Origin: Mesoaciditoga lauensis cd-1655R = DSM 25116 | GTDB lineage: Bacteria; Thermotogota; Thermotogae; Mesoaciditogales; Mesoaciditogaceae | DNA length: 64,000 nt | Direction: 5' to 3' | NCBI RefSeq assembly: GCF_000745455.1 | Contig: NZ_JQJI01000007.1 | Span: forward strand, 1 to 64,000 | Shown: piece after piece, positions 2,600 to 60,016 of the stretch | How the letters are laid out: the number at the start of each line of letters is the position of its first letter | Numbering within the stretch: the stretch's first letter is position 1 | The notes under the pieces: model-generated | What the model was told of the DNA's origin: nothing | Databases searched by the model: none | Seen by the model: the letters and a program-made list of their open reading frames with translations, nothing else | Program-made: the position numbers and the translations under genes

Positions 2600-2773
2600 T
2601 CGAAGTACTTGTCAGAACATATGAGCTCTCCGTCTGAGGATTCAAAATATGAGGTTGAAAGGCACAGGACGTGCTGAGAAAGCGAAGCACTCATGGATGA
2701 GTGTCTGAGCGTGCCTCATATTTTGAATTAGGAAGGCGGAAAGAAGAGCGAATCCGTTCTGGCAGGACTTCGA
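2600..2773 (+). repeat. T1 foldback repeat, copy 1
   Basis: This is a 174-nt foldback. The basal arms CGAAGTACTTGTCAGAAC (2601-2618) and GTTCTGGCAGGACTTCG (2756-2772) pair. An inner stem joins 2639-2654 with 2714-2729. Inside it lie a hairpin GGCAC-AGGAC-GTGCT (2661-2675), the conserved unpaired GAGAAAGCGAAG (2676-2687) and a hairpin CACTC-ATGGAT-GAGTG (2688-2703). It lies beside the group II intron, forming its 5' exon on the minus strand. No open frame is conserved with the other copies. Confidence 0.85.
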
Positions 2774-2868
2774 AAAAAATCACCTTGACCGCTTGGAAAG
2801 CGGTAGTGAAATGTCAAAGGATGCTATTATTCGAAATATGTTATCCACACAAATTCGCAGAGAACTAA
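2774..2868 (+). repeat. Conserved 3' tail of the T1 repeat
   Basis: A tail of about 95 nt follows T1 here, at 17959-18056 and at 59919-60016. It contains a hairpin CCGCTT-GGA-AAGCGG, nested within TTGAC/GTCAA, and then TTATCCACA (2841-2849), identical to the E. coli DnaA-box consensus. The tail ends at CGCAGAGAAC in all three copies. Confidence 0.7.
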
Positions 2869-2939
2869 ATTTAGTTCATTCGATTATTTGCAATATTTAG
2901 CATTAACAACACTTTGTAGCATCAACGCACACGATGAGG

Positions 2940-3002
2940 TATAATGTCAACAGAACGGCTGTAAAATAGTAAAGTAGGACTTACATTTCTTAAAAAGGAG
3001 GA
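2940..3002 (+). promoter_or_regulatory. Putative -10 box and strong RBS of the ABC importer operon
   Basis: TATAAT at 2940-2945 lies about 65 nt upstream of the first gene of the importer operon. A -35 box is not convincing (TTGTAG at 2914-2919 with a long spacer). The ribosome site AAGGAGGA (2995-3002) is close to perfect. No riboswitch was recognised in 2869-3009. Confidence 0.45.
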
Positions 3003-3009
3003 ATTTATC

Positions 3010-4020
3010 ATGAAAAAGGTAGTCGTAATTCTTTCTGTAACACTTCTTTTCATGTTCGGAATGTATTCAACTGCTTTGAGTGCCTCTCATATGAAGGTCG
3101 CGTTGGTAATAGCGGGAGAGCTTGGAGACAAATCTTTTTATGATTCTTCTTATCAGGGCTTGTTGAAAGCCGAAAAGGATTTAGGCATATACGGAAAAGT
3201 TTTGCCTTGCAAGACAGATCCAGCAAACTACATGCCTCAAATGATAGCAGCTTCAACCAATTTTGATATGGTGGTAGTTGTGGGATACGAACTCATAGAT
3301 ACTCTCAAACAAGTGGCTCCCCAATTCCCAAAAGTTGATTACATTTACATAGATGATGTCGTCAAAGCAGGGCAAGTTACATCTATCGTTTTTAAACAAA
3401 ATGAAAGTTCCTTCATGGCTGGTGCACTCGCTGCAACGCTGACTGAAAGAAAAGGATTCCCAATGGTCAACTCCCAAAAAGTGATAGGATTTGTGGGTGG
3501 AGAAGACTATTCCGTTATAAGGGACTTTCTCATCGGTTATGAACAAGGAGCACATTACATCGATCCGAGCATAAAAGTCTTAACGGGATACGTGGGAGGA
3601 TGGGACGATCCGGCAACGGCGAAAGAAATCGCTCTTGATCAATTCCATCATGGAGCGGACATCATTTTCCAGGTTGCAGGGGGTAGCGGTCTTGGAGTTA
3701 TAGACGCCGCGAAACAGGCTCACTTCTGGGCAATAGGCGTGGATTCACCACAGGGTTATCTTGCACCCAACAACATCCTCACATCCGTCGTGAAAAATGT
3801 CGGAAATGCGGTTTACGATATGATAAAAGCAAAACTGAATGGCACTTACAAAAGAGGAACGATATACACTTACGGTATAGCGAACAACGGTGTTGGTTTG
3901 AGCTATTCCAGTGTGATGCTCAAAAACGTGCCGGCTGACGTTATTCAAAACCTTATACAGCTGAGAACTCAAATAATAACTGGAAAAATAAAGGTAAAAT
4001 CTTACTTCGATAAAAAATGA
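3010..4020 (+). CDS. BMP-family substrate-binding protein of ABC importer
   Basis: This 336-aa exported protein binds the solute for the three transporter genes downstream. It has a Sec signal (residues 1-25, hydrophobic LSVTLLFMFGMYSTALSAS). The mature part has the BMP/PnrA fold signatures: VALVIAGELGDKSFYDSSYQGL at the N-terminus, the VVVVGYELIDTLKQVAPQFP strand-helix unit, GFVGGEDYSVIRDFLIGYEQG and an IGVDSPQGYL segment. Family members bind purine nucleosides (PnrA, BmpD, NupN). Unlike most of them, no lipobox cysteine follows the signal, so it may be free periplasmic rather than lipid-anchored. The stop overlaps the next start (ATGA). The ligand is inferred only from the family. Confidence 0.85.
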   Translation: MKKVVVILSVTLLFMFGMYSTALSASHMKVALVIAGELGDKSFYDSSYQGLLKAEKDLGIYGKVLPCKTDPANYMPQMIAASTNFDMVVVVGYELIDTLKQVAPQFPKVDYIYIDDVVKAGQVTSIVFKQNESSFMAGALAATLTERKGFPMVNSQKVIGFVGGEDYSVIRDFLIGYEQGAHYIDPSIKVLTGYVGGWDDPATAKEIALDQFHHGADIIFQVAGGSGLGVIDAAKQAHFWAIGVDSPQGYLAPNNILTSVVKNVGNAVYDMIKAKLNGTYKRGTIYTYGIANNGVGLSYSSVMLKNVPADVIQNLIQLRTQIITGKIKVKSYFDKK

Positions 4021-5522
4021 AGACCATAGTTGAACTTGAATCTGTCACTAAAAAATTTGGAAAAATCATAGCTGTTAGCGAAGTGAATCTCTCCATCCAA
4101 GATGGAGAGATTCACTCGGTAATAGGAGAAAACGGCGCTGGAAAAACCACTTTGATGCGCATCCTTTATGGGATGTACAAACCAGATCGTGGAAGAATAA
4201 AAGTCGCAGGAGAATCCGTGAAATTCTCTTCACCTAAAGATGCTATTTTTAAAGGGATTGGCATGGTCCACCAAAATTTCATGCTCATAGATACTTTTAC
4301 GGTTTACGAAAACGTTGTGCTTGGTTCCGAACCTAAAAAAGGTATCAAATTTGACAGAAAAAAAGCCAAAGAAAAGGTAAAAGAACTAGCAGCTATGTAT
4401 AAAATGAATTTAGATGTTGATGAAAAAGTTGGAAGGCTGTCCGTAGGGTTGCAGCAAAAAGTGGAGATACTGAAGCTACTTTACCGAAACGCGAAGATCC
4501 TCATATTCGATGAGCCGACAGCTGTTTTAACTCCACACGAATCGGAAATACTTTTTGAAATATTGAAACGATTCAAAAAAAATAGCAAAACGGTCATTTT
4601 CATTTCCCACAAGCTTAAAGAAGTAAAAGAAATCTCAGACAGAATAACCGTTATGAGAAATGGTAGAAATCTGGGCACTTTTGAGAACAAAAATCTTTCT
4701 GAAGAGAAATTAGCCGAAATGATAGCGGGCAGAAAGCTCTCACATTTTTCTCCTCCGACGGTCGAAGTAGGAAAAACCGCTTTAAAAGTAAAAGATGTTT
4801 CTTTCATAAAAAATGGCATATCTGTCTTGAAAAATGTAAACTTGGAAATAAGAGAAGGCGAAATAGTTGGAATCGCTGGTGTGGTAGGAAACGGTCAAAG
4901 CGAATTGGAAGAAATAGTCAGCGGGATGACAATTCCAACAAGTGGTAAGGTTTTCTTTTATGGAGAAGAGATAACAAATCTAAGCGTGAGAAAAAGAAGG
5001 GAAAAAGGCATGGTTTACATTCCGGAAGATAGAATAAAAACCGGCTTAGCCCCCCTTGCTTCGATAGAGGAAAACATGCTTATGGGGCATCAAAATAAGA
5101 AGCAATTCCTTGGAAAGATGGCCCTTCTTAAAAGGAAGAACATAAAAGAATTCACAACATCGCTGGTGAAAAACTATGACATAGTTTGTAAATCTCCCAA
5201 TGAGCAAGCGGGAACGCTCAGCGGTGGCAACATGCAAAAGGTAGTTATAGCGAGAGAATTTTCACACGATGCGCGTTTTCTCGTGATATCGCAGCCCACA
5301 CGTGGTGTGGACGTTGGAGCAATAGAGTTCGTCCATAAAAGAATAATGGAGATGAAGAAAAAGGGTATCGCAATTCTGTTAATTTCATCCGATTTAGATG
5401 AAATTTTCGCCCTTTCAGATAAAATAGTCGTTATGTACGAAGGAAGGATAAATTACGTGACGAGCAGAGAAAATGCTCAGCCAACTGAAATTGGATTGGC
5501 TATGTTGGGGATGAGGAAGTAA
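4017..5522 (+). CDS. ABC transporter ATPase, two-domain nucleoside/sugar type
   Basis: This 501-aa cytoplasmic ATPase carries two fused nucleotide-binding domains, as in NupO/YufO and RbsA. Domain 1 has Walker A GENGAGKTT, Q-loop VHQNFML, signature LSVGLQQKVEIL and Walker B ILIFDEPTA. Domain 2 has a degenerate Walker A (GVVGNGQSE), signature LSGGNMQKV and a Walker-B-like LVISQPTRG in which the usual catalytic Glu/Asp is replaced. Such asymmetry is normal for this subfamily. The start overlaps the binding-protein stop by 4 nt and its stop overlaps the permease start, so the subunits are translationally coupled. Confidence 0.9.
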   Translation: MKTIVELESVTKKFGKIIAVSEVNLSIQDGEIHSVIGENGAGKTTLMRILYGMYKPDRGRIKVAGESVKFSSPKDAIFKGIGMVHQNFMLIDTFTVYENVVLGSEPKKGIKFDRKKAKEKVKELAAMYKMNLDVDEKVGRLSVGLQQKVEILKLLYRNAKILIFDEPTAVLTPHESEILFEILKRFKKNSKTVIFISHKLKEVKEISDRITVMRNGRNLGTFENKNLSEEKLAEMIAGRKLSHFSPPTVEVGKTALKVKDVSFIKNGISVLKNVNLEIREGEIVGIAGVVGNGQSELEEIVSGMTIPTSGKVFFYGEEITNLSVRKRREKGMVYIPEDRIKTGLAPLASIEENMLMGHQNKKQFLGKMALLKRKNIKEFTTSLVKNYDIVCKSPNEQAGTLSGGNMQKVVIAREFSHDARFLVISQPTRGVDVGAIEFVHKRIMEMKKKGIAILLISSDLDEIFALSDKIVVMYEGRINYVTSRENAQPTEIGLAMLGMRK

Positions 5523-6556
5523 TGGAAAAATACAAAGGGATCATCATAATAACAGTTTCATTTCTTTTAGCACTTGTCGTGGGTGGGCTTTTAATGTTGC
5601 TTTACCACGTTTCGCCGATAGACGGCTACAAAGAAATGGTAATTGGCGCATTGGGAAATAAATTCGTGTTGTATTCCACCCTGGCTAGAATGGTTCCCAT
5701 TCTTTTGACTGGTCTTTCAATTGCCATATCCTTTCACGCAGGAATATGGAACATAGGAGCGCAGGGGCAACTTTATCTAGCTGCTTTTATGGTAGCGGCT
5801 ATGGGAGTTACATTCCATGGAATTCCTTCCGTGCTTTATCTAACTCTGGGCGTTAGTGTTGGACTTCTTGTGGGTGGGTTATGGGCATGGATTCCTGGGT
5901 ATTTAAAAGTGAAGTACAACGTAAATGAAGTTGTTTTAACCATAATGATGAATTCCATCGCCGTGTACTTCACTTTGTACATGGTAAATGGCCCGTTCAG
6001 GACTACAGAAGGCTCTTTAGGAGCGACTAACATCATAGACAAAGCGATGTGGCTCAAACACTTAAATCCCCTTTCCAACTTAAACACCGGCATATACATA
6101 GCATTGGCCGCAACGGCTGTCATAATTTACCTAATGCTCTTCAGCAAGTACGGCTATGAATGGAAAATGTCCAGGTTGAATATCAGATTCAGCATCTACG
6201 GCGGTGTAAACGTTAAGAAGAACTTGATCATGGCAATGGTAATAAGTGGCATGTTGGCAGGATTAGCAGGGACCATTCTTGTTATGGGAGATTATCATCG
6301 TTTCTTAAACGGAATATCTCCCGGTTATTCCTGGACGGGCATGATACTGGCAATGATGGTGAATTACGATCCTATTGGTGTGATCATCACTTCTTTCATA
6401 TATGCCGTGATGGCTTCTGGAGGATTGCAAATGGAATTGGCTTTGGACATTCCTCAAGAGCTGGTGCAGATAATATTCGTTCTCTCTGTTATGTTTGTAA
6501 CGGCCGGCTATTCCATGGCAAACAGGGTAGCCAATCGCATTCAGGAGGAGGGCTAA
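5522..6556 (+). CDS. ABC transporter permease 1 (BPD_transp_2, NupP-like)
   Basis: This 344-aa integral membrane protein has about eight to ten hydrophobic segments and belongs to the branched-chain/ribose/nucleoside permease superfamily. The characteristic EEA-like coupling region GISISFHAGIWNIGAQGQLYLAAF is represented by AISFHAGIWNIGAQGQ near residues 64-79; NEVVLTIMMNSIAVY follows. The longer of the two permeases, it corresponds to NupP/YufP. It starts on the A of the preceding TAATG and is followed after 1 nt by the second permease. Confidence 0.88.
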   Translation: MEKYKGIIIITVSFLLALVVGGLLMLLYHVSPIDGYKEMVIGALGNKFVLYSTLARMVPILLTGLSIAISFHAGIWNIGAQGQLYLAAFMVAAMGVTFHGIPSVLYLTLGVSVGLLVGGLWAWIPGYLKVKYNVNEVVLTIMMNSIAVYFTLYMVNGPFRTTEGSLGATNIIDKAMWLKHLNPLSNLNTGIYIALAATAVIIYLMLFSKYGYEWKMSRLNIRFSIYGGVNVKKNLIMAMVISGMLAGLAGTILVMGDYHRFLNGISPGYSWTGMILAMMVNYDPIGVIITSFIYAVMASGGLQMELALDIPQELVQIIFVLSVMFVTAGYSMANRVANRIQEEG

Positions 6557-6557
6557 G

Positions 6558-7445
6558 ATGTACATTTACAGGTCGACCATAGCAACTCTTACGATGATAA
6601 TGCTGCCGGTACTTGGTGGAATGTGGACGCTGCAAGCGGGAATATTGAACATCTCCCAGGAAGGTGCAATGGTGATGGCCGCTTTTTTTGCGGTTCTTGG
6701 TTCTTACTTATTTTCTTCTTTTTGGATGGGATTGCTTTTTGCCATTTTGGCATCCCTGGTGATAAACCTTATATATGCCGTCTTTTGCATCAACCTTCGT
6801 GCAAACATTTGGGTTATAGGAATGGCCTTGAACATATTCGCATCAAGCTTAACCATTTTACTTTTGAAAAGCATCTTTGGGGTTAAAGGATCTTTCACTT
6901 CATCTAAAATTCAGCAGATTCCATTCATTCATCTTGGAAACCTTGGATTTTTGAACGCATTTTTTAACGATTTCTCGTTGGTTGTATGGATAACAGTAGG
7001 ATTGGTTATATTTTTCAAATATGTGGATTCGCACACAACTTTCGGGCTCCATTTGAAAGCCGCTGGAAAGAATTGGCAGGCTTTAAACAGTGCAGGCGTT
7101 TCTTCTACGCTCGTCAGATACGAAAGTATCCTCATAAATGCGGTGTTGGTTGGAATATCCGGTGCTTACCTTTCAATAGGATATCTAAAGCTCTTTAACA
7201 AAGATATGAGCGCCGGGAGAGGTTGGATAGCGGTGGCCGCCGTGATATTTGGAGATGGAGATTTCACATGGACCTTGATAGCAACTATTGCCTTCGGGTT
7301 TATGGATGCTCTTGGGATATCCCTTCAATCTTATGGATTAAATTCAAACTTAACCCTCATGTTTCCGTACCTGGCAATTGTTGCAGCTTTAATATATCAA
7401 GGCGTAAAGAGTTTCCAGAAAAAGAAAAAGGCTAGTTCAACTTAG
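6558..7445 (+). CDS. ABC transporter permease 2 (BPD_transp_2, NupQ-like)
   Basis: This 295-aa membrane protein is the partner permease (NupQ/YufQ type). It keeps the family region LQAGILNISQEGAMVMAAF near the N-terminus and the conserved late segment GISGAYLSIGYLKLF. It forms the heterodimeric channel with the upstream permease and completes a four-gene binding-protein/ATPase/permease operon. Its stop codon overlaps the cheB stop on the other strand by 4 nt (7442-7445), leaving no room for a conventional terminator between the two converging operons. Confidence 0.88.
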   Translation: MYIYRSTIATLTMIMLPVLGGMWTLQAGILNISQEGAMVMAAFFAVLGSYLFSSFWMGLLFAILASLVINLIYAVFCINLRANIWVIGMALNIFASSLTILLLKSIFGVKGSFTSSKIQQIPFIHLGNLGFLNAFFNDFSLVVWITVGLVIFFKYVDSHTTFGLHLKAAGKNWQALNSAGVSSTLVRYESILINAVLVGISGAYLSIGYLKLFNKDMSAGRGWIAVAAVIFGDGDFTWTLIATIAFGFMDALGISLQSYGLNSNLTLMFPYLAIVAALIYQGVKSFQKKKKASST

Positions 7446-8921: not shown

Positions 8922-8937
8922 AAATTAGCGCCCTTTT

Positions 8938-10402: not shown

Positions 10403-10405
10403 TTA

Positions 10406-13788: not shown

Positions 13789-13878
13789 CGAAGTGATTAT
13801 ATCATTATCTCAATTAACTCACAAACATATTGAAAAGTGAGTCGTAAGGAGTGAAAAAGCTTTTATTTGTTTTTTTCG

Positions 13879-13921
13879 CATCTCGTATGGTTTTTCATAT
13901 GCTTTGACGGAAATATCAAAT
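13879..13921 (-). repeat. Degraded T3 fragment
   Basis: On the minus strand the segment resembles the 5' arm of T3 (TATGAAAAACCATACGAGATG against TATGAAGACGCCATACAAGATG). Only one arm survives, so it cannot fold into the full element. The rest of 13789-14066 is AT-rich; an ACATTACGAAAGATATTACA block at 13951-13970 has a weaker relative at 60040-60060. Confidence 0.45.
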
Positions 13922-14066
13922 GGTAGAGTACTCATGTTGTGCGTGAACATTACGAAAGATATTACAAGAGACATTACAAAAATTCTCTATAAGAACATGT
14001 GAGCAACATTTGAATACAACGTTTTTGATTTAGGATCCGCTTTCCAAGCGGTCAAGGTGATTTTTT

Positions 14067-14239
14067 TCGAAGTACTTGTCAGAACGGATTCGCTCTTCTT
14101 TCCATCTTACAATTCAAAATACGAGGCACGCTCAGACACTCGTCCGTGAGTGCTTCGCTTTTTCGGCACGTCTTGTGCCTTTCAACCTCATATTTTGAAT
14201 TTCCAGATGGGAGCTCATATGTTCTGACAAGTACTTCGA
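14067..14239 (-). repeat. T1 foldback repeat, copy 2
   Basis: This is a 173-nt foldback in minus orientation with the most perfect arms of the family: 18 bp of CGAAGTACTTGTCAGAAC pair with their exact complement. The inner hairpins are GGCAC-AAGAC-GTGCC and CACTC-ACGGAC-GAGTG, with the core GAAAAAGCGAAG (one change from the other copies). Its flank at 14240-14290 is the intron-free relative of the group II intron insertion site. It lies between phoH and tsaE, both on the minus strand. Confidence 0.85.
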
Positions 14240-14314
14240 GGGTGAGAACTAATCCCTTTTGAAATGCTCTGTAACATTGACGCGCAATGTGAGTAGAGTA
14301 ACATTCGTTATCTC

Positions 14315-14597
14315 TTCTCTTTAGCCTCGTATCAATACTTCGAAACCCCCTTCGTCGGCTTCGTCGCCACTTCCCCCGCAAGCGGGGGCAGACTTCTTAT
14401 ATAAAATGACTCCGCCGACACTTCTCCCACACGTAGGGGCAGATTTTTCAATTTGGAAAGTGGTTTTCTTGAGTCTCATCCCAAAACCGGGAGGAGTGGT
14501 GGCGTTAGCCAGCGAGGAGGGTTTATTTCCCCTCTTAACTTTCAATACTGAAGACTTTCCAATTGATTTTTTAAACCTGACGCACAAAATGGCTTAT
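14315..14597 (+). repeat. T4 GC-rich palindromic repeat, copy a
   Basis: This repeat carries CCCCCTTCGTCGGCTTCG, the hairpin CCCCCGCAAGCGGGGG and a second, imperfect copy of the same module (CCGCCGACACTTCTCCC). A conserved outer end follows (AACTTTCAATACTGAAGACT, then ...AATTGATTTTTTAAAC...GACGCACAAAATGG). An unrelated segment of about 80 nt at 14455-14530 appears to be inserted. The element fills the gap between T1 and the phoH stop. Open frames across it are not conserved between copies. Confidence 0.6.
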
Positions 14598-14615
14598 GGC
14601 AATACATCATAATGA

Positions 14616-15872: not shown

Positions 15873-15892
15873 ATTACACCTCCAAATAAAGA

Positions 15893-15918
15893 CAAATCGC
15901 GCCTTAGGGCGCGATTTG
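15893..15918 (-). terminator. Terminator hairpin after the 5'-nucleotidase gene
   Basis: CAAATCGCGCC (15893-15903) pairs with GGCGCGATTTG (15908-15918) over a 4-nt loop, an 11-bp GC-rich stem. On the minus strand it is followed by a T-rich stretch. It separates the nucleotidase gene from phoH. Confidence 0.7.
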
Positions 15919-15927
15919 AAAACTCAT

Positions 15928-17661: not shown

Positions 17662-17784
17662 CGTTTTTAGGGTTCTCATCAGTTTAGTGTGGGTAAAGCA
17701 TACCGATTCTCTATTCTGTCTGTTGGTGCAGCTGAACAAAATCATTCCAAAATACCTTGTTATCAAGTAAAAGAACAAGCATCC
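17662..17784 (+). repeat. Conserved 5' flank of T1, form B (copy 3)
   Basis: About 120 nt from GTTTTTAGGGTTCTCATCAG to AAAAGAACAAGCATCC match 59621-59744 closely. The T1 at this locus therefore moves or was duplicated with a larger unit (17662-18056, about 395 nt). Copies 1 and 2 have a different 5' flank. Confidence 0.65.
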
Positions 17785-17958
17785 TCGAAGTACTTGTCAG
17801 AACATATGAGCTCCCCATCTGGAGATTCATAAATATGAGGTTGAGAGGCACAGGACGTGCCGAGAAAGCGAAGCACTCATGGACGAGTGTCTGAGCGTGC
17901 CTCATATTTTGAATTGTAAGATGGAAAAAGGAGCGAATTCGTTCTGACAGGACTTCGA
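17785..17958 (+). repeat. T1 foldback repeat, copy 3
   Basis: This 174-nt T1 has arms CGAAGTACTTGTCAGAAC and GTTCTGACAGGACTTCG, the hairpin GGCAC-AGGAC-GTGCC, the core GAGAAAGCGAAG and the hairpin CACTC-ATGGAC-GAGTG. It lies in the divergent gap between the 5'-nucleotidase and the aldo-keto reductase, so promoters of both may be close to or within the repeat block. Confidence 0.85.
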
Positions 17959-18056
17959 AAAAAATTACCTTGGCCGCTTGGAAAGCGGTAGTAAAATGTC
18001 AAAGGATGATATCTATTATTCGAAATATGTTATCCACACAAATTCGCAGAGAACTA
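17959..18056 (+). repeat. Conserved 3' tail of T1 (copy 3)
   Basis: This is the same tail as after copies 1 and 8: CCGCTTGGAAAGCGG hairpin, then TTCGAAATATG and TTATCCACA (18030-18038), ending at CGCAGAGAAC. It runs directly into a T4 repeat. Confidence 0.7.
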
Positions 18057-18292
18057 AGATTTGTCATCTCTTCTCTTTGGTTTCGTATCAAAACTCGAAC
18101 CCCCTTCGTCGGCTTCGCCGACACTTCCCCCACAAGTGGAGGCAGACTTCTTATACAAAATGGCTTCGTTGATATTTCCCTACAAATTGGCAGAATATCC
18201 ACAAAAGGAAAGAAAGGTTTATTTTCCATATTAACTTTCTATACCGAAAACTTTCCAATCGATTTCTTAAACTTGATGCACAAGATGAGTAA
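18057..18292 (+). repeat. T4 GC-rich palindromic repeat, copy b
   Basis: It contains CCCCCTTCGTCGGCTTCGCC, the hairpin GTCGGCTTCGCCGAC and the imperfect hairpin CCCCCACAAGTGGAGG, then ATATTTCCCTACAAATTGGC and the outer end AACTTTCTATACCGAAAACT...CGATTTCTTAAACTTGATGC. It ends about 55 nt before the aldo-keto reductase start. Confidence 0.6.
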
Positions 18293-20443: not shown

Positions 20444-20502
20444 CAAGCCGTAAGCACATAGCGGCAAGAATGGATAGTAAGATGATAGGCTTATATGCGT
20501 TG

Positions 20503-20772
20503 AGTTCAAGAAATCAATTGGAAAGTTTTCGGTATAGAAAGTTAATATGGAAAATAAACCTTTCTTTCCTTTTGTGGATATTCTGCCAATTTGTAGGGAA
20601 ATATCAACGAAGCCATTTTGTATAAGAAACCTGCCACCCCCCTGGGAGAAATGTCAACAGAACTATTTTTATATAAGAGGTCTGCCCCCATTTATGGAGG
20701 AAGTGTTGGCGGAGCCGACGAAGGGGGTTCGAGTTTTGACAGAAAACCAACGAGAAGAGATAACGAATCCTA
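20503..20772 (-). repeat. T4 GC-rich palindromic repeat, copy c
   Basis: This is the reverse-oriented T4. It starts at the conserved outer end (TTGAGTTCAAGAAATCAATT, GGAAAGTTTTCGGTATAGAA) and carries two module copies, the second ending GTTGGCGGAGCCGAC and GAAGGGGG. The duplicate module (20630-20680) shows internal expansion. A 95-residue open frame across it is treated as non-coding. Confidence 0.6.
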
Positions 20773-20784: not shown

Positions 20785-20841
20785 TTGAAGTTTCTGTCAA
20801 AACGTATGAAAACGCCATACCAGATGCGAAATAACAGAGTT
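20785..20841 (+). repeat. Truncated T3 (5' arm only)
   Basis: TTGAAGTTTCTGTCAAAACG, then CATACCAGATGCGAAATAAC and CAGAG match the 5' arm of T3. The sequence then jumps to the T-rich spacer before a T2. The 3' arm is missing. Confidence 0.6.
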
Positions 20842-20864
20842 TTTTCTTCTCTCTTCCCTTTATC

Positions 20865-21034
20865 GAAACACTCGCCAGCACTTATGAACTCTCCATCTGA
20901 AGACTCTAAAAACGAGGTTGAGAAACACACGGATGTGTTGAGAAAGCGAAGCACTCATGGACGAGTGTCTGAGCGTGCCTCGTTTTTTGAGTCGTAAGAT
21001 GGGTAAAAGAGTGAATCATGCTGGCATGTGTTTC
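20865..21034 (+). repeat. T2 foldback repeat, copy A
   Basis: This 170-nt foldback has arms GAAACACTCGCCAGCA and TGCTGGCATGTGTTTC. It has an intermediate stem CCATCT/AGATGG, an inner stem GACTCTAAAAACGAGG/CCTCGTTTTTTGAGTC, the hairpin AACACA-CGGA-TGTGTT, the core GAGAAAGCGAAG and the hairpin CACTC-ATGGAC-GAGTG. Stem sequences differ from T1 but every stem is preserved. Confidence 0.85.
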
Positions 21035-21073
21035 AGATCAAATGCTTTTCTTCGCTTTTCTCTTCCCTTTTTT

Positions 21074-21242
21074 TGAAGTTTTCGTCAAAACATATGAAGA
21101 CGCCATACAAGATGCGAAATAACAGAGTTGGAGGCACACGATGTGCCGAGAAAGCGAATCTAACAGGATGTTTGTATGCAGCGGGCTCTGTTATGAGCAT
21201 CTTGTATGGATATACGTCTGAATCAGTTTTGACAAAACTTCA
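21074..21242 (+). repeat. T3 foldback repeat, copy A
   Basis: This 169-nt foldback has arms TGAAGTTTTCGTCAAAAC and GTTTTGACAAAACTTCA. It has inner stems ATACAAGATGC/GCATCTTGTAT and AATAACAGAG/CTCTGTTAT separated by a symmetric GA/GA internal loop, the hairpin GGCAC-ACGAT-GTGCC, the core GAGAAAGCGAA and a small hairpin AACA-GGA-TGTT. It follows T2 copy A after a T/C-rich spacer of about 40 nt. The T2-T3 pair fills the convergent gap before glnA. Confidence 0.85.
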
Positions 21243-21349
21243 AAATTTTCTTTTGTCTTATTAAGCCTCACAAAAAACTTCAAAACGCTATAATTTTTCG
21301 CTCATACAAAATCAAGAAAAATTTTCCTTACATTCACAATGAAAATAAT

Positions 21350-25047: not shown

Positions 25048-25263
25048 CCCTCTTTCTGTATCCTTTTCGTGCAATTATACAACCAAATTCCTCTTCAACT
25101 TTCCTCACGTTATGCTTCTCACATCGTCTATTCTACAACAAATTGAAAACATATCAAGGCCTCTAAAATGTTCTTAATGGAAAAGTGAAAAGTCATAAGT
25201 GATGGTTATTTTCAATGAAAGTTTTTTCTTATTTTGCTCTTGACTTTCTAGAATATCCAAATA

Positions 25264-25360
25264 AAATAGTGAATCCGTGCTGGCTGGGTTTCGAATTAAT
25301 TATGCTTTTTCTTCGCTTTTCTCTTTCCCTTTTGAAGTTTCTGTCAAAATATATGAGTAA
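25264..25360 (+). repeat. Remnant of a T2-T3 junction
   Basis: The segment TCCGTGCTGGCTGGGTTTCG, AATTAATTATGC, a T/C-rich spacer and GAAGTTTCTGTCAAAATATA match the end of T2 and start of T3 at 43728-43806. Both elements are truncated here. Confidence 0.55.
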
Positions 25361-25417: not shown

Positions 25418-25516
25418 AAGATGGAGAAGACCCCCTACGTCGGCTTTGCCGCCACTTCCCCCGCAAGCGGGGGCAGACTTATATAAAAATGATTCCATCG
25501 ACATTTTACTTTTATG
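25418..25516 (+). repeat. T4 GC-rich palindromic repeat, copy d
   Basis: This short T4 has CCCCCTACGTCGGCTTTGCC, the perfect hairpin CCCCCGCAAGCGGGGG and CAGACTTATATAAAAATG. The outer end seen in copies a to c is missing. Confidence 0.55.
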
Positions 25517-25566
25517 ATGAGAAATCGAATCTACCAGGTTTTTTCCACCTTTTCTCCTTTTGAATC

Positions 25567-25736
25567 GAAACACTCGCCAGCACTTATGAACTCGCCATCT
25601 GAAGACTCTAAAAACGAGGTTGAGAAACACACGGATGTGTTGAGAAAGCGAAGCACTCATGGACGAGTGTCTGAGCGTGCCTCGTTTTTTGAGTCGTAAG
25701 ATGGGTAAAAGAGTGAATCATGCTGGCATGTGTTTC
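25567..25736 (+). repeat. T2 foldback repeat, copy B
   Basis: This 170-nt copy is nearly identical to T2 copy A (20865-21034), including both arms, the AACACA-CGGA-TGTGTT hairpin and the core. It lies upstream of T3 copy B in the same tandem arrangement. Confidence 0.85.
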
Positions 25737-25775
25737 AGATCAAATGCTTTTCTTCGCTTTTCTCTTCTCCCCCTT

Positions 25776-25944
25776 TGAAGTTTTCGTCCAAACATATGAA
25801 GACGCCATACAAGATGCGAAATAACAGAGTTAGAGGCACAGGATGTGCCGAGAAAGCGAATCTAACACGACGTTTGTATGCAGCGGGCTCTGTTATGAGC
25901 ATCTTGTATGGGTATACGTCTGAATCAGTTTTGACAAAACTTCA
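25776..25944 (+). repeat. T3 foldback repeat, copy B
   Basis: This 169-nt copy has an isolated change (GTCCAAAC for GTCAAAAC) in the 5' arm and GGCAC-AGGAT-GTGCC as its first hairpin. The T2-T3 unit 25567-25944 has the same total length (378 nt) as 20865-21242. It ends about 60 nt before the sbcC stop. Confidence 0.85.
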
Positions 25945-26003
25945 AAAATTCCCTTTGCCTTGCTAAAACCCTCAAAATTCTTTCAAAGCATGACTTAAAA
26001 TCG

Positions 26004-43514: not shown

Positions 43515-43551
43515 TCAGATGTGAAATAACAGAGTTGGAGGCACAGGATAT
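43515..43551 (+). repeat. T3 internal fragment
   Basis: AGATGTGAAATAACAGAG and TTGGAGGCACAGGAT match the inner part of T3, ending abruptly before the spacer that precedes T2 copy C. Confidence 0.5.
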
Positions 43552-43574
43552 TTTCTTCTCTCCCTTTTTCTTTC

Positions 43575-43745
43575 GAAACGCTTGCCGGCACTTATGAACT
43601 CTCCAGCTGAAGACTCATAAAAACGAAGTTGGGAAACACACGGATGTGTTGAGAAAGCGAAGCACTCATGGACGAGTGTCTGAGCGTGCCTCGTTTTTTG
43701 AGTCGTAAGATGGATAAAAGAGTGAATCCGTGCTGGCTGGGTTTC
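43575..43745 (+). repeat. T2 foldback repeat, copy C
   Basis: This 171-nt copy has arms GAAACGCTTGCCGGCA and TGCTGGCTGGGTTTC. It carries substitutions relative to copies A and B in the arms, and pairing is largely kept with wobble pairs. The inner hairpins and core are unchanged. Confidence 0.82.
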
Positions 43746-43786
43746 GGATTAATTATGCCTTTCTCTGCCTTTCTCTCTCCTTTTTT

Positions 43787-43955
43787 TGAAGTTTCTGTCA
43801 AAACATATGAAGACGCCATACAAAATGCGAAATAACAGAGTTGGAGGCACACGATGTGCCGAGAAAGCGAATCTAACAGGATGTTTGTATGCAGCGGGCT
43901 CTGTTATGAGCATCTTGTATGGATATACGTCTGAATCAGTTTTGACAAAACTTCA
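43787..43955 (+). repeat. T3 foldback repeat, copy C
   Basis: This 169-nt copy has the 5' arm TGAAGTTTCTGTCAAAAC and the 3' arm GTTTTGACAAAACTTCA, with the same inner stems as copies A and B. It forms the third T2-T3 tandem unit (43575-43955) and lies just downstream of the large oxidoreductase operon. Confidence 0.85.
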
Positions 43956-44030
43956 AAACTCTTTTTTCAATGATCGCCTTTTCGCACTGATTAAAACCAT
44001 TACCTTCATGCACATCAAGAGTAAAAAACT

Positions 44031-44060: not shown

Positions 44061-44076
44061 TTGAACTCAAAACGAA

Positions 44077-46325
<2,249 letters not shown>

Positions 46326-46339
46326 CTAAACTTCCTCCC

Positions 46340-48178: not shown

Positions 48179-48188
48179 CAAGATCACC

Positions 48189-50335: not shown

Positions 50336-50348
50336 TTTTGGCACCTCC

Positions 50349-53101: not shown

Positions 53102-53120
53102 ACTTTTCAACACCTCCCCG

Positions 53121-54638: not shown

Positions 54639-55012
54639 CTTTTCGCCTCCTTGATCTTTCTGACATCCAAAGTTCCATACTTCTCGAATATCTTAACTCC
54701 TATTGTAAGAGCCAAAGCAGTGGTTCCCAGCCCTATAACAATTGCGGTAAGAACAAGCGATTGTGGGAGTGGATCGGCACTTACAACTTTTCCATTGACA
54801 ACCAGATGGTTTGTCGCGGTGTATATCGGCATCACAGCTTTTGGATGCCATGCTATGGCTATCATGAAGAGATTCGTTCCGCTTTCTATTATGTTTAATC
54901 CAACTATGATCTTGAAGATATTTTCATCTGTGAGGGTTATGTACAAACCAATTCCAAACAGTGAAATCGCACCTATAAGGTATATCCAGTTTTGGAGGAA
55001 TACTTCCATCAT
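54635..55012 (-). CDS. mnhC: MnhC/NuoK-like subunit
   Basis: This subunit of about 125 aa has three membrane helices of the MrpC/NuoK family (LIGAISLFGIGLYITLTDEN, IVGLNIIESGTNLFMIA, QSLVLTAIVIGLGTTALAL). It contains the conserved Glu in the second helix. The start is ATG 55012 (or 55009), within the overlap with the MnhB-type gene, after GAGGAG. Confidence 0.88.
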   Translation of the reverse strand: MMEVFLQNWIYLIGAISLFGIGLYITLTDENIFKIIVGLNIIESGTNLFMIAIAWHPKAVMPIYTATNHLVVNGKVVSADPLPQSLVLTAIVIGLGTTALALTIGVKIFEKYGTLDVRKIKEAKR

Positions 55013-55842
55013 GACCACTCCTCTTTAGTATCAACGATCATGGAATTCACAACCGCCGACAATTCTGCTCCAACTTTCATTCCTATCGCGATGTATATCA
55101 AAGCGATAAAGCCAGCGCTGTAAAGATCTCCTATTACACCCGTTGGCAAGAAATTTGCCAGGAATGAGTGTACACTGAACAAGCCCGTTAAACCTATTAT
55201 CACAAAAGCCATACCGGATAGGGATTCAAAAACTTTCAATCCCAGATGGTTTGGCTCATACCCATTTCTTCCAAGGAAAAGCCCTAATATACCTGAAGCT
55301 ATGACGGCACCTCCGGGGAAACCTCCACCAGGTGTCAAATGCCCATGAACGAATATGTAAATTCCGAAGAGGAATATAATCGCAAACGCAATTCTTGTAC
55401 CGACATACATTATCAAACTTGGCTCTGTTTTCTTCTTCCTCTTCTTTTCTTTTCCAAACAAAAGCATTGCCACACCCGTTGCGGCCAAAAACAGCACCGT
55501 AACTTCCCCAAGCGTATCGAAGCCACGATAATCAACGACAATGGAAGTTACGACATTCGCAGCTCCATCTTCAAGATTTTTGCTCTTTGCAAAAGTGATT
55601 GGAGTGTAAGGAACATCGCTACGAAGTGGCTTAATGCCTTTTGCAAAGAATTCTCCATCTTTCATCATCTTCGTGGCCGTTTGAACATTTTTAAGCACGT
55701 ACAAACGTGAAACCCTTTGATTAACGTTAACGGCCGTACCCTTTGGCATTTCAACAAAAACTGCGAAGAACCCTATCAAGAGAATCGCTACAACTGACAG
55801 AGCTGTTATCTTTTTGACAAGTTCAGGAGTGTCATTCCTCAT
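55009..55842 (-). CDS. MnhB-type subunit with N-terminal MbhE-like extension
   Basis: This 277-aa subunit has an N-terminal part (about 1-130) that resembles the MbhE/MrpA C-terminal region (NVVTSIVVDYRGFDTLGEVTVLF). The C-terminal part is a MnhB domain (HLTPGGGFPGGAVIASGILG, ESLSGMAFVIIGLTGLF). Fusion of these two parts occurs in MBH/MBX-type complexes. It belongs to the Na+/H+ antiporter module. The start ATG lies within the end of the MbhD-like gene. Confidence 0.85.
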   Translation of the reverse strand: MRNDTPELVKKITALSVVAILLIGFFAVFVEMPKGTAVNVNQRVSRLYVLKNVQTATKMMKDGEFFAKGIKPLRSDVPYTPITFAKSKNLEDGAANVVTSIVVDYRGFDTLGEVTVLFLAATGVAMLLFGKEKKRKKKTEPSLIMYVGTRIAFAIIFLFGIYIFVHGHLTPGGGFPGGAVIASGILGLFLGRNGYEPNHLGLKVFESLSGMAFVIIGLTGLFSVHSFLANFLPTGVIGDLYSAGFIALIYIAIGMKVGAELSAVVNSMIVDTKEEWS

Positions 55843-56086
55843 CTCTGGATTCTCCCTTCTTAACTTTTTTCAAAGCTATCACAAAAATGGCCGTTGAAAG
55901 CCCAGCACCAATGGCAGCTTCAGTTATGGCAACGTCTGGGGCTTGAAGAAAGAAGAACAAACCCGAAACTCCCAAACTCACGAATCCCATCGATATTATC
56001 GAAGAAAGCAATTTCTTTGAGAAGACGGCTATAAGGGCCAACATAATGATAACTACAACTACAAGGGTGGCAACGTATATTATCAT
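55832..56086 (-). CDS. MbhD-like (DUF4040) subunit
   Basis: This 84-aa, three-helix membrane protein is equivalent to the DUF4040 region of MrpA and to MbhD/MbxD (SSIISMGFVSLGVSGLFFFLQAPDVAITEAAIGAGLS, split here: SSIISMGFVSLGVSGL and QAPDVAITEAAIGAG). The AITEAAIGAG motif is diagnostic. It overlaps its neighbours by 4 and 11 nt. Confidence 0.87.
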   Translation of the reverse strand: MIIYVATLVVVVIIMLALIAVFSKKLLSSIISMGFVSLGVSGLFFFLQAPDVAITEAAIGAGLSTAIFVIALKKVKKGESRDEE

Positions 56087-56442
56087 TTTTCATCGCCACC
56101 TTCTGGGAACTTCCAGCCTCTTTCTTCACAGCTATCTGGATCGGTACCAGGATACAATTTAACTCCAACTCTGTAAGAAGCACGCGCAATGGCGTGACTG
56201 GAAATCGGGTTGGTCATCAAAAGAAAAACAGCCAAAGCCGCTGCAAAGAGTATCCATCCTTTGGCTATCAATCCTACTCCTATAGAAGTAGAGACAACAC
56301 CAAGCGTCGTTGCCTTTGTTCCAGCCTGAAGTCTGTTAAACAAATCAGGAAGTCTGAATATTCCCAAGGCACCAAGGAACAAGAAAAATACTCCTATAAA
56401 AACGAAAACGACTCCCAGCCATCCTAAGAAAGCATCCAACAT
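56083..56442 (-). CDS. mnhG: MnhG-like antiporter subunit
   Basis: This 119-aa, three-helix protein has LGALGIFRLPDLFNRLQAGTKATTLG, the MrpG/MnhG signature (IFRLPDLFNRLQAGTKA). The C-terminus is hydrophilic. The start is ATG 56442 with GAGGGGG; the frame opens at 56460 within the mnhF end. Confidence 0.88.
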   Translation of the reverse strand: MLDAFLGWLGVVFVFIGVFFLFLGALGIFRLPDLFNRLQAGTKATTLGVVSTSIGVGLIAKGWILFAAALAVFLLMTNPISSHAIARASYRVGVKLYPGTDPDSCEERGWKFPEGGDEK

Positions 56443-56443
56443 C

Positions 56444-56716
56444 TCAAAGCCCCCTCTCAAGATATCTGGCTATAACGAGGCCACCCAAAAACGAGAGAAT
56501 GGCGTAAACCATGGCAACGCTAAGAAGAACGAATTGAAAGAAAAAGAGGGCTAATATAACCCAAAAACCTGTCGTTATGGTTGTCCAGTTATCAAGCGCG
56601 ACCAATCTGTCGGAATTTGTGGGACCCATAACACCTCTCAAAGTTGCAAGAATAGTTGCAAGAGAAACCGTGGCAAACCATATGATCCATATTGCCATAG
56701 GTATGTGGATCCTCAT
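56444..56716 (-). CDS. mnhF: MnhF-like antiporter subunit
   Basis: This 90-aa, three-helix protein of the MrpF/MnhF family has LRGVMGPTNSDRLVALDNW, matching the RGPTxxDRVxALD signature. The ATG overlaps the mnhE stop (ATGA). Confidence 0.88.
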   Translation of the reverse strand: MRIHIPMAIWIIWFATVSLATILATLRGVMGPTNSDRLVALDNWTTITTGFWVILALFFFQFVLLSVAMVYAILSFLGGLVIARYLERGL

Positions 56717-57222
56717 TTGAACATCGCCTCCAGGATCTTCTCAAAACTTCCAGCTATTTCACGGCTAGCACCTTCCACATCTTTCGCTTTTACGGTTATC
56801 CAATGGATGTAAAGGTATTGTCCATCGATATCCAACGATAACGTGCCAGGTGTAAGAGTTATGGAATTTGCTAACCATACCCGTGCAACAGGGGATTTAA
56901 GATTCGTTTTGATTTTGACGATACCAGGCTTTATCGGCATCTTGGGGTTTAGAACGATAGAAGCCACATGCAAATTGGCCTTTATCATTTCCCACGTGAA
57001 AACGGGTAGATACCAAAAAAGAAGTACGCCTAGTCTCATAACGTTTTTCATTCCAGAAACACTTAACTGTTTGTAAGTTAACAATGCTCCTAGAAAAGCT
57101 ATAACAGTGCCCGCTTCCCATTCATGAATGGAAAAAGGATAAGTAAGCACTATCCAGAGGAAAAAATAAACCATCACGGCATAAAGATAACGACTGCCGA
57201 CCGAACTCTCCGCTCTTTCCAC
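56713..57222 (-). CDS. mnhE: MnhE-like antiporter subunit
   Basis: This 169-aa subunit is the first of the operon. It has two N-terminal membrane helices and a cytoplasmic tail with LANSITLTPGTLSLDI, the MrpE/MnhE signature. It starts at GTG 57222 with GAGGTGAT upstream. The gene order E-F-G-D-B-C-antiporters-NuoH-B-C-D-I matches the archaeal mbx order as I know it. Confidence 0.88.
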   Translation of the reverse strand: MERAESSVGSRYLYAVMVYFFLWIVLTYPFSIHEWEAGTVIAFLGALLTYKQLSVSGMKNVMRLGVLLFWYLPVFTWEMIKANLHVASIVLNPKMPIKPGIVKIKTNLKSPVARVWLANSITLTPGTLSLDIDGQYLYIHWITVKAKDVEGASREIAGSFEKILEAMFK

Positions 57223-57290
57223 GCTATCACCTCATTTGTGAAAAAGTTCTCATTATTTTGTGTGAAAAAACTTTTGATTTTCTCGGTTGT

Positions 57291-57318
57291 ATTATACCCC
57301 TCCCGGGTAATCGTTCAA
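57291..57318 (-). promoter_or_regulatory. Promoter of the Mrp/MBX-Nfn operon
   Basis: On the minus strand TTGAAC (57318-57313) and TATAAT (57296-57291) are spaced 16 bp. The start would be about 60 nt before mnhE. A short palindrome CCCGGG lies in the spacer. The rest of the gap up to 57480 is AT-rich with no further feature recognised. Confidence 0.6.
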
Positions 57319-57581
57319 AACATTTTTGAAAATTTTTGAAACAATTGTGGAAATCTATTGTTACCATATAAATGATAAAGTATGTTTTTTCTTTACAAGC
57401 AAAGATTATAATACTTCACGTTGTATGTGAAAGTAGCAGTTCAATTGGCGTGAAAGACGATCATTCTCGAATTATGCAAGTCGAATTAAAATTGAAAGTC
57501 AAGAGGAAAAATGAAACCTCTTAGGCTTGGGAAGAGATCTAACACGATTGCTTTCCAAATAATTTCGTTCCTAAAAGATGA

Positions 57582-57690
57582 GGCATCGATGAAGTTTTAT
57601 ATAAGTCAAGTCTTCCTCCATTTATGGTGGAAGTGTCGGCGAAGCCGACGAAGGGGGCAGAGTTTTGATATAAGGCCAAAGAAAAGGGGG
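57582..57690 (-). repeat. T4 GC-rich palindromic repeat, copy e
   Basis: This reverse-oriented short T4 has GATGAAGTTTTATATAAGTC, TCCTCCATTTATGGTGGAAG and GTGTCGGCGAAGCCGACGAA followed by GGGGGC. It occupies the divergent gap between the large operon and the ClC gene. Confidence 0.55.
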
Positions 57691-57821
57691 GAGCTAATCC
57701 TACATCCATTTGAGAATTCTGGCAAAACATCGGGATGTTTTATGCACAGAGTTATGTACTTTCACGTATTACGAGTATAATTTAACTGAAAAATTTGGTT
57801 TAGGATTTGGAGGGAGCAAAG

Positions 57822-59582
57822 ATGAGGAAGAAAAAGGACAATTTAGATCAATTCACCTTCTCAATGTTGGCAATTGTTGTGGGAATAGTTGCGGGTTTTG
57901 GGGCGGTATTTTTCAGAATCTTGATAGCTTTTATACACAATGAGATGTTCTTTGGGAAATTCTCAATATTTTACAATTCAAACGCGCATATTCCTCCATC
58001 AATATGGGGAAAATACGTAATACTTGTTCCAGTAGCGGGGGCGTTGGGAGTCGCGTTTTTGGTAAAAAACTTTGCTCCTGAAGCAAAAGGACACGGTGTG
58101 CCGGAAGTTATGGATGCGATCTACTACAACAAAGGGATTATTAGGCCTATAGTGGCTGCCATAAAGTCGTTAGCATCAGCACTTTCAATAGGAAGCGGCG
58201 GTTCCATAGGACGTGAAGGGCCTATAGTTCAGATAGGCTCAACCTTTGGTTCAATGATAGGGCAATGGGTTAAAATGCCTGCGTGGCAAAGAATAACATT
58301 GATAGGAGCTGGGGCTGGTGCAGGAATCGCAGCCACTTTTAACACTCCCATAGGTGGGTTGCTGTTCGCCATAGAATTGATGGTTCCAGAACTTAGTGTT
58401 AGAACATTTGTACCTATAGCCATTTCCACATCGACAGCAACTTTCATAGGGCGAATTTTCTTTGGGAACACGCCTTCTTTCATAATACCAGCTTTTGCAA
58501 TACCTAAAGATCAACTTACAAATCCTTATTTGCTTTTAACTTACATTGGCCTTGGATTGATCGTCGGTAGTGCTTCAGCGCTTTTCATAAAATCAATCTA
58601 CGGCTTTGAGGATTTCTTTGATAAGATGCCTGGAAATTACTACACAAGGCATGTGATTGGAATGCTTGCTCAAGGAACGTTAATGTATCTTCTTTTCGTT
58701 TACGCTGGCCATTACTATGTAGCTGGCGTTGGATACAGCACCATTCAGGACGTCCTGATGAATGTGCTTCTAAATCCATACTTTTTGCTCTTGCTTGCCT
58801 CTTTAAAATTGCTTGCCACCTCTCTAACGTTAGGATCAGGTGCATCTGGTGGTATATTTTCACCTTCCCTTTTTATGGGAGCTACTCTTGGATCTATGTA
58901 CGGCTCATTCTTGAACGTGATACATCCAGCCATGTCGGCAAACCCCGCCGCTTTTGGTGTGGTAGGAATGGCCGGTATGATAGGCGGAACAACGGGTGCA
59001 GCCATCACGGCAATAGTTATGGTTTTCGAAATGACAAGAAATTACAACGTCATCATCCCAATGATAATAACCGTTGCCATCGCTGATGGTGTGCGAAGAG
59101 TTATATCACCAGACAGCATATACACCAAAAAGCTTACAAGGCGGGGACATCTTATACCTGAAGTCTTCCATATGAACATTCTTTTGGTAAAACGTGTAAA
59201 AGATGTTATGGAAAAGAGAGTTATAGGCATACAAAAAGATATGAAAATAAGGGAAGTTATCGAAGAACATGGGGAAAGCGCAGTTCTAAGCTTCGTCGTT
59301 AAAGATGGAAACACCGTCGTTGGAGTCGTGACCTTGAAGTATCTTTTAAGACAATTGAATAAGGATATAAAAATAGAACAAGTTATGTCCAAAGATTACG
59401 TTATAGCCCAAGAAAACGATACGCTTTTTAAGATAATTGGACAAATGAGAAAAAGAAGATGCCCCACCGCCCTTGTAACTTTGAATGGAAAATGCGCATC
59501 CATTTCAGATGTGCTAGGAATAATAACAAAAGAAGAAATCGCAGAGGCAGCGGCAGAACAGGTGGAATTATTCACAAATTGA
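57822..59582 (+). CDS. ClC-family chloride channel/transporter with CBS domains
   Basis: This 586-aa membrane protein has the ClC core: SIGSGGSIGREGPIVQIGS (gating Glu in GREGP), VPELSVRTFVPIAIS and TLGSGASGGIFSPSLFMGATLG. The C-terminal cytosolic part (about 460-586) holds two CBS-like units (VMEKRVIGIQKDMKIREVI, VMSKDYVIAQENDTLFKII). It moves Cl- by exchange or channel activity. The start is ATG 57822, with GGAGG 8 nt upstream; the frame opens at TTG 57807. A -10-like TATAAT is at 57776-57781. Confidence 0.92.
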   Translation: MRKKKDNLDQFTFSMLAIVVGIVAGFGAVFFRILIAFIHNEMFFGKFSIFYNSNAHIPPSIWGKYVILVPVAGALGVAFLVKNFAPEAKGHGVPEVMDAIYYNKGIIRPIVAAIKSLASALSIGSGGSIGREGPIVQIGSTFGSMIGQWVKMPAWQRITLIGAGAGAGIAATFNTPIGGLLFAIELMVPELSVRTFVPIAISTSTATFIGRIFFGNTPSFIIPAFAIPKDQLTNPYLLLTYIGLGLIVGSASALFIKSIYGFEDFFDKMPGNYYTRHVIGMLAQGTLMYLLFVYAGHYYVAGVGYSTIQDVLMNVLLNPYFLLLLASLKLLATSLTLGSGASGGIFSPSLFMGATLGSMYGSFLNVIHPAMSANPAAFGVVGMAGMIGGTTGAAITAIVMVFEMTRNYNVIIPMIITVAIADGVRRVISPDSIYTKKLTRRGHLIPEVFHMNILLVKRVKDVMEKRVIGIQKDMKIREVIEEHGESAVLSFVVKDGNTVVGVVTLKYLLRQLNKDIKIEQVMSKDYVIAQENDTLFKIIGQMRKRRCPTALVTLNGKCASISDVLGIITKEEIAEAAAEQVELFTN

Positions 59583-59588
59583 GGTATT

Positions 59589-59618
59589 AAAAGGCTCTCT
59601 GGTTTGGAGAGCCTTTTT
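59589..59618 (+). terminator. Terminator after the ClC gene
   Basis: AAAGGCTCTC and GAGAGCCTTT form a stem over a 7-nt loop, ending in a T run. The stem begins about 7 nt after the stop codon. Confidence 0.85.
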
Positions 59619-59620
59619 AA

Positions 59621-59744
59621 GTTTTTACGGTTCTCATCAGTTTAGTGTGGGTAAAACATGCCGATTCTCTATTCTGTTTGTTGTTTTGGTTCTGAACAAA
59701 ATCATCCCAAAATATCTTGTTATCAAGTAAAAGAACAAGTACCC
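59621..59744 (+). repeat. Conserved 5' flank of T1, form B (copy 8)
   Basis: The sequence from GTTTTTACGGTTCTCATCAG to AAAAGAACAAGTACC matches 17662-17784 with scattered substitutions. Together with T1 and its tail it forms a unit of about 396 nt (59621-60016). Confidence 0.65.
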
Positions 59745-59918
59745 TCGAAGTACTTGTCAGAACATATGAGCGTTCCATCTGAAGATTCACAAATATGAGG
59801 TTGAGAGGCACAGGACGTGCCGAGAAAGCGAAGCACTCATGGACGAGTGTCTGAGCGTGCCTCATATTTTGAATCGTAAGATGGAAAAAAGAGCGAATCC
59901 GTTCTGACAGGACTTCGA
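59745..59918 (+). repeat. T1 foldback repeat, copy at 59.7 kb
   Basis: This 174-nt T1 has full arms, GGCAC-AGGAC-GTGCC, GAGAAAGCGAAG and CACTC-ATGGAC-GAGTG. It lies in the convergent gap between the ClC gene and nrdJ. Confidence 0.85.
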
Positions 59919-60016
59919 AAAAAATCACCTTGACCGCTTGGAAGGCGGTAGTAAGTAAAATGTCAAAAGATGCTATTATTCGAAATATGTTATCCACACA
60001 AATTCGCAGAGAACTG
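59919..60016 (+). repeat. Conserved 3' tail of T1 (59.9 kb)
   Basis: It holds the CCGCTTGGAAGGCGG hairpin, TTCGAAATATG, TTATCCACA (59990-59998) and an end at CGCAGAGAAC. The remaining 60017-60102 is AT-rich with a distant match to 13943-13983 and no terminator for nrdJ that I can see. Confidence 0.7.

Follow-up and report, generated by a model that had tools for sequence, protein, structure and literature searches.

The 64,000-nt stretch that opens contig NZ_JQJI01000007.1 of the heat-loving bacterium Mesoaciditoga lauensis (positions 1 to 64,000, here called the window) raises the question of what its foldback repeats are. Three subfamilies of these repeats (T1, T2 and T3, collectively T) occur in the window, and a sequence-only reading had described them as a mobile foldback, a structured RNA, or both. 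The last of these options fits best: copy number, target duplications and the ends of miniature inverted-repeat transposable elements (MITEs) speak for mobility, and covariation and strand folding speak for RNA. The module is very probably a mobile relative of the TwoAYGGAY RNA (Rfam RF01731), while the complete chain, a mobile TwoAYGGAY-like RNA module that binds CsrA, stands at about an even chance.

Using repeat search, folding and BLAST mapping we located ten full copies in the window (four of T1, three of T2 and three of T3) as well as fragments, in agreement with the tally and positions that had been obtained from the sequence alone. The T1 foldback at 2600-2773 (+ strand) consists of hairpin 1 (2661-2675, GGA at 2667-2669), the linker GAGAAAGCGAA (2676-2686) and hairpin 2 (2688-2703, GGA at 2695-2697), and the other T1 copies lie at 14067-14239 (- strand), 17785-17958 and 59745-59918 (both + strand). 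T2 and T3 occur as arrays together with T3 fragments, all on the + strand: the T2 foldbacks at 20863-21038, 25565-25740 and 43573-43750 are followed on their 3' side, after 34, 34 and 35 nt, by the T3 foldbacks at 21073-21243, 25775-25945 and 43786-43956, and the first and third of these T2 copies are preceded by a left fragment of T3 (T3 positions 1-57, at 20785-20841) and by an inner one (positions 38-70, at 43517-43549), respectively. A right-end fragment of T2 (positions 142-178) is found at 25261-25297 (+ strand), and a weak fragment at 13871-13919. With up to one mismatch allowed, the linker GAGAAAGCGAA occurs 14 times in the window, compared with 2.0 occurrences expected and a maximum of 6 in 100 shuffles.

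In the genome as a whole (G000; 2.17 Mb in 65 contigs) there are at least 59 T1, 44 T2 and 24 T3 full copies, at least 127 in total, with at least 67 partial copies across the retrieved stretches; copies were gathered through searches and retrieved stretches, and all copy counts are minima. The family thus extends beyond the window, contrary to the lack of outside copies that the sequence-only reading had named as one of the findings that would count against it, and makes up roughly 1% of the genome. Copies diverge by 4-9% within a subfamily and by 23-45% between subfamilies, and the length of 171-175 nt measured in 106 genome copies closely matches the 169-174 nt given earlier.

The plan first proposed for the repeats, a long basal helix with inner helices, two small hairpins and an invariant linker, proved correct in its layout, but it had missed the GGA in both hairpin loops, the embedding in MITEs, and the fact that the element at 2600-2868 is split by an intron. 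T1, T2 and T3 hold one fold through changes on both sides of the helices. Among 23 copies from several genomes, standard pairs fill 93.8% of the paired cells, double changes are seen at 24 of the 33 pairs, and covariation scores 0.521, compared with 0.185 for shuffled alignments and at most 0.109 when the partners are slid; the alignment was fitted to the model and is therefore biased towards the structure, but the margin is nonetheless large. An internal loop of UAUGA opposite GAAU, with tandem G-A mismatches, is present in all three subfamilies and in the copies of a related genome (G043). The GGA strand is on average more stable than its complement by about 7-11 kcal/mol, and it is the better folder in 43/43 T1, 37/39 T2 and 24/24 T3 copies as well as in all 20 copies compared from genus g10 (copies within a subfamily are not independent, the four groups nearly so). 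Covariation and the folding difference between the strands together support the conclusion that the module is a structured RNA.

At Rfam gathering thresholds the window returned only a group II intron and a tRNA and none of the T elements, and the sequence-only reading had not recognised the repeats as a named RNA. That view is overturned by intermediates, and by true RF01731 copies in related genomes, which link the foldbacks to TwoAYGGAY as divergent relatives. In an E-value search the T2 copy at 20863-21038 matches RF01731 with 30.3 bits (E 0.2-0.5), and related copies in two genomes of another family match the whole model with 40.9 and 40.5 bits, close to the gathering score of 43 (E about 1e-3). 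In T2 and in copies from G043 and G059 the alignment covers model positions 1-168 of 168 in consensus order. A model built from T1-T3 (R1) finds the G043 copies at E 2e-10, and G043 also carries RF01731 copies above the cut-off. It is one of five genomes, out of seven in genus g10 (family f7), that have 24, 19, 12, 10 and 3 dispersed RF01731 copies, several of them above the cut-off and reaching 43-52 bits. Although the T2 match is at chance level when taken alone, it counts because R1 matches G043, because RF01731 is above its cut-off in G043 and in the genus, and because the loops, their spacing and the tandem G-A mismatches also agree with TwoAYGGAY. The two hairpins with AYGGAY loops and the tandem G-A pairs of the closing stem that mark TwoAYGGAY are both present, with some loops lacking the first Y. 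As judged from sequence comparison, it is well supported that T is a divergent relative of TwoAYGGAY, rather than a formal member of the family. The likeness extends to the two A-Y-GGA-Y hairpins, a GGA-GGA distance of about 28 nt, the long closing helix, the tandem G-A mismatches and the full-length alignment, whereas the linker and helix sequences differ, and here the RNA, in at least 127 full copies, is found as the core of MITEs.

The distribution of these relatives is patchy, with R1 matches in five other genomes of the family to which the window belongs and none in any of the four g2 genomes (g2 being a genus). A scan for the exact core in 84,980 species genomes, with a pattern that leaves out T3-like and diverged cores, gave matches only in Mesoaciditoga and in Thermotogae metagenome-assembled genomes, a result that puts the window within or close to Mesoaciditoga (Mesoaciditogaceae, Thermotogota), and the exact core was without match in viral contigs. 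In G008 and G004 (L144-L155) the core is part of longer foldbacks that have an additional arm, GACCAAAGCGATAGCTGCGAAG, and one more hairpin, and which are present in many near-identical copies and often at contig ends. Within G043, a putative IS110-like transposase open reading frame (ORF), identified by eye, is found next to a T core that is truncated, as though the transposon had inserted into the foldback (L140, G043:C2:1505500-1510500). Six TwoAYGGAY copies of g10 genome G053 (L222, L224, L226, L227, L229 and L230) are located between copies or parts of the same terminator-like hairpin; the flanking direct duplications are 16-31 bp (scores 16-26, compared with shuffled maxima of 8-11.5), and the duplicated hairpin would represent a target duplication that leaves a terminator on both sides.

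With regard to mobility, at least two kinds of MITE contain the module. MITE A, the usual setting of T1, is about 360 nt long and consists of 55 nt with the CTCAACCTGTGCGTCAATGTTAC end, T1, and 134 nt with the GTAATGTTCACGCACAACATGAG end; it has terminal inverted repeats of about 23 bp and a 7-bp target duplication, which matches at 6 or more of the 7 positions in 13 of the 19 complete elements, compared with 1.2% of mismatched flank pairs. The right end of MITE A alone occurs 108 times at up to three mismatches, with none for the reversed control. MITE B has the inverted ends GGTTCTCTTCA..GTGTGGGTA, unrelated to those of A, and a core of either T1 or T3; of 5 copies, 3 show an 8-bp duplication that is perfect or differs at one base. 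Among full copies with assigned ends, A ends flank 40 T1 and one T2, B ends flank 6 T1 and 3 T3, and there are single cases of mixed ends or of an inverted core. In the window, a complete MITE A at 13931-14293 (- strand) has terminal inverted repeats of about 23 bp around the T1 copy at 14067-14239 and TACTCTA duplicated on both sides. The T1 copies at 17785-17958 and 59745-59918 lie in MITE B elements at 17671-18055 (+ strand; ends GGTTCTCATCAGTTTAGTGTGGGTA ... TTATCCACACAAATTCGCAGAGAACT, target duplication not recognisable) and 59629-60015 (+ strand; 8-bp target duplication GTTTTTAC).

The remaining T1 copy of the window belongs to a single element at 562-2868, into which a group II intron has inserted. 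At the left end of this element, an A-type left arm at 562-610 (+ strand) is cut from the T1 at 2600-2773 by the intron and completed by 2593-2599, and is combined with a B-type right arm at 2774-2866 (+ strand), making the element an A/B chimera. No flanking duplication was seen in 3 of the 4 chimeras inspected, and the one in the window has a possible AT-rich match, AAATTTA. Exchange of cores and ends between MITE kinds is most simply explained by homologous recombination between near-identical cores. In 22 MITE A copies T1 diverges by 5-7%, compared with mostly 12-19% for the remainder and 9% for the right end, which is consistent with either selection on the core or its homogenisation. The terminal inverted repeats, target duplications, copies numbering at least 127 and module exchange together make it well supported that the family is mobile.

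Several candidate sources and extensions of the MITEs were considered. The ends of MITE B recall those of ISL3, but a PF01610 protein is absent from the genome, and an IS200/605 or RAYT (REP-associated tyrosine transposase) origin was likewise discarded, as the Y1 transposase (PF01797) is without match there. At the several clusters of A ends sampled, in a search that was not exhaustive, an autonomous parent of MITE A was not found and only host genes were present, and for neither kind of MITE did a transposase responsible for its movement come to light. The T2/T3 arrays were considered as a further MITE kind (MITE C), which was not upheld, as searches for direct or inverted repeats did not fix their ends. 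An identical A-like end variant, ATCTTCACGCACAACGTGAG, occurs at eight places (including L167, L168, L169 and L173), and in the three copies inspected it lies 0-40 nt upstream of a long ORF. The group II intron itself (611-2592, - strand) has a match to RF02003 at 2431-2567 and encodes a reverse transcriptase and maturase at 813-2183; it interrupts the A-type left arm at a distance of 6-7 nt from the T1 foldback, and its 5' side follows the hairpin in the way that class C group II introns follow terminators.

The loops of the two hairpins suggest a partner for the RNA. Hairpin 2 has a loop of A(Y)GGAY with the GGA present in 104 of the 106 copies, hairpin 1 keeps its GGA in 96 of the 106, and the variable loop positions are almost always C or T. 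The distance from GGA to GGA is 28 nt in 41/43 T1 and 37/39 T2 copies, 27 nt in 23/24 T3 copies, and again 28 nt in nearly all g10 copies. A CsrA/RsmE site is an ANGGAN loop, and one dimer bridges sites 10-63 nt apart (PMC7652899); T has both features, a GGA in a hairpin loop (some loops being shorter, AGGAY) and two such sites 27-28 nt apart. TwoAYGGAY is filed in Rfam with the Csr-Rsm protein-binding RNAs in clan CL00106 (PMC5753348), and PMC4333381 proposes CsrA binding from motif matches and reports tandem G-A pairs. The genome has a single csrA (C64:5203-5358, E 3e-21), which adjoins fliW, and FliW is described in PMC7829508 as the CsrA antagonist in Campylobacter jejuni. On motif and spacing, CsrA may bind the modules, with a likelihood that we put somewhat short of even. 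As a marker of genomes that carry the module, the presence or absence of csrA was tried and rejected, since it does not separate carriers from non-carriers.

The proposed mechanism would start from three subfamilies of a structured RNA module, divergent relatives of TwoAYGGAY, that spread as DNA by forming the core of MITEs of two or more kinds, for which transposases would act in trans, with cores and ends swapped by recombination at the near-identical cores. After insertion, read-through transcription would allow the GGA strand to fold into the long helix, presenting two A(Y)GGAY loops at a spacing of 27-28 nt that a single CsrA dimer could bridge, and each copy would then be a bivalent CsrA site, either marking its host transcript or competing collectively for CsrA. 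The modules may in this way titrate CsrA as a sponge. It is possible, but rather doubtful, that they form a mobile regulatory cassette, in which about 250 GGA loops would both provide read-through transcripts with CsrA sites in cis and make up a sponge dispersed over the genome, with FliW as the other CsrA antagonist; if this were true, TwoAYGGAY as a class would by extension be mobile.

A number of findings weigh against the reading as a mobile, CsrA-binding TwoAYGGAY relative. The window copies score about 30 bits against the RF01731 gathering score of 43. T1 hairpin 1 and both T3 hairpins have a five-base AGGAY loop, lacking the first Y of the classic hexaloop, and in T3 hairpin 1 CGA replaces GGA in 9 of 24 copies. 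CsrA was found in 44 of the 53 genomes without R1 matches, and is uninformative because it is too common in the class, while csrA and fliW were not found in G008 (87% complete) despite its 41 R1 matches. Scans of three elements revealed no sigma-70-like promoter, so that any transcription would depend on read-through, which is the probable route. Of the T2 copies, however, 30 of 34 have an opposed downstream gene (array members were counted singly, so this bias is somewhat overstated), and most arrays run antisense to the gene that adjoins their 3' end; as they face the 3' end of that neighbour, read-through from it would yield the wrong strand. Finally, helix substitutions show no preference for changes by which the GGA strand retains a G-U pair (57 vs 53 unique changes).

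The last observation is also what would be expected if T were a foldback of DNA only, in which a cruciform or single-stranded hairpin aids MITE mobility or recombination, and common descent alone explains why the copies share an RNA fold and GGA loops. The lack of a promoter in the three elements agrees with this, as does the lack of an orientation bias relative to genes among T1 copies, and core exchange, inversion and internal deletions all centre on T. However, the GGA strand is the more stable one in T1, T2 and T3 alike and also in the related family, the A(Y)GGAY loops are kept while the stems change in a compensatory manner between subfamilies and genomes, a cruciform has no obvious need for the loop sequence of one strand, and T is conserved above most of the MITE, left end included. 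We therefore regard a role in DNA only as unlikely, though it is the strongest of the alternatives.

A structured RNA whose GGA loops are recognised by another RNA-binding protein or an RNase, instead of CsrA, would account for the retention of modules in G008, where csrA was not found, and for the linker GAGAAAGCGAA and the UAUGA/GAAU tandem G-A loop, which lie outside the known CsrA site and are as conserved as the hairpin loops; the loop and spacing nevertheless suit CsrA well, and with Rfam grouping TwoAYGGAY among Csr-Rsm-binding RNAs such a partner appears distinctly improbable. Least probable are 3'-end arrays that stabilise transcripts or insulate, like bacterial interspersed mosaic elements (BIMEs) built from repetitive extragenic palindromic (REP) units, for although the T2/T3 arrays lie strongly beside the 3' end of an antisense-reading gene and duplicated terminator hairpins flank the TwoAYGGAY copies of g10, T1, the most numerous subfamily, has no 3'-end bias, and REP units are normally 20-40 nt long and tied to a Y1 transposase, whereas the units here are 173 nt and that transposase is absent.

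Comparison with known systems places the mobile TwoAYGGAY relative between several of them. As with CsrB, CsrC, RsmY and RsmZ, repeated GGA hairpin loops fit a CsrA dimer, and a T2-T3 array offers four sites in a row; those RNAs are products of regulated small RNA genes with many sites, whereas here there are two sites per unit, scattered by transposition. As with MITEs, the elements are short and mostly non-coding, with terminal inverted repeats, target duplications and a high copy number, but at least two kinds with unrelated ends share one structured core that is conserved above most of the element. The enterobacterial BIME/REP arrays are likewise intergenic mosaics of palindromic units, although the units here are several times longer and have conserved internal loops, with no Y1 transposase in the genome. 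By the tests described above the module is built like TwoAYGGAY and travels like a MITE, and in its function it would resemble a Csr/Rsm RNA reduced to two sites.

Since 2010 TwoAYGGAY has stood as an orphan among RNA families, and the original report (PMC2864571) gives it as probably an RNA and probably neither cis-regulatory nor a riboswitch, whereas Rfam types it as Cis-reg. The passages on TwoAYGGAY consulted here do not mention mobility, and we found in them no description of several MITEs that share, as an exchangeable core, a conserved RNA of the Csr clan. Its relatives here occupy about 1% of a genome, in at least two kinds of miniature transposon and with a geometry suited to a CsrA dimer, and are patchily distributed over two Thermotogota families, a warning that a cis-regulatory label in Rfam may belong to a family of transposable repeats. 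Should CsrA bind them, the sites of a global regulator have been scattered by mobile DNA; otherwise, an RNA fold that is both abundant and well conserved still awaits its partner.

Two further repeats were observed in the window. Inverted repeats of 143 nt (94% identical) at 18138-18280 and 20496-20638 enclose an aldo/keto reductase together with two ORFs that have no match in Pfam, and the whole is possibly a composite mobile unit. Another interspersed repeat, around CCCCCTTCGTCGGCTTCGCCGACACTTCCCCC...GGGGGCAGACTT, is found at 14344-14424, 18098-18178, 25429-25509 and 57608-57657, and is unrelated to T.

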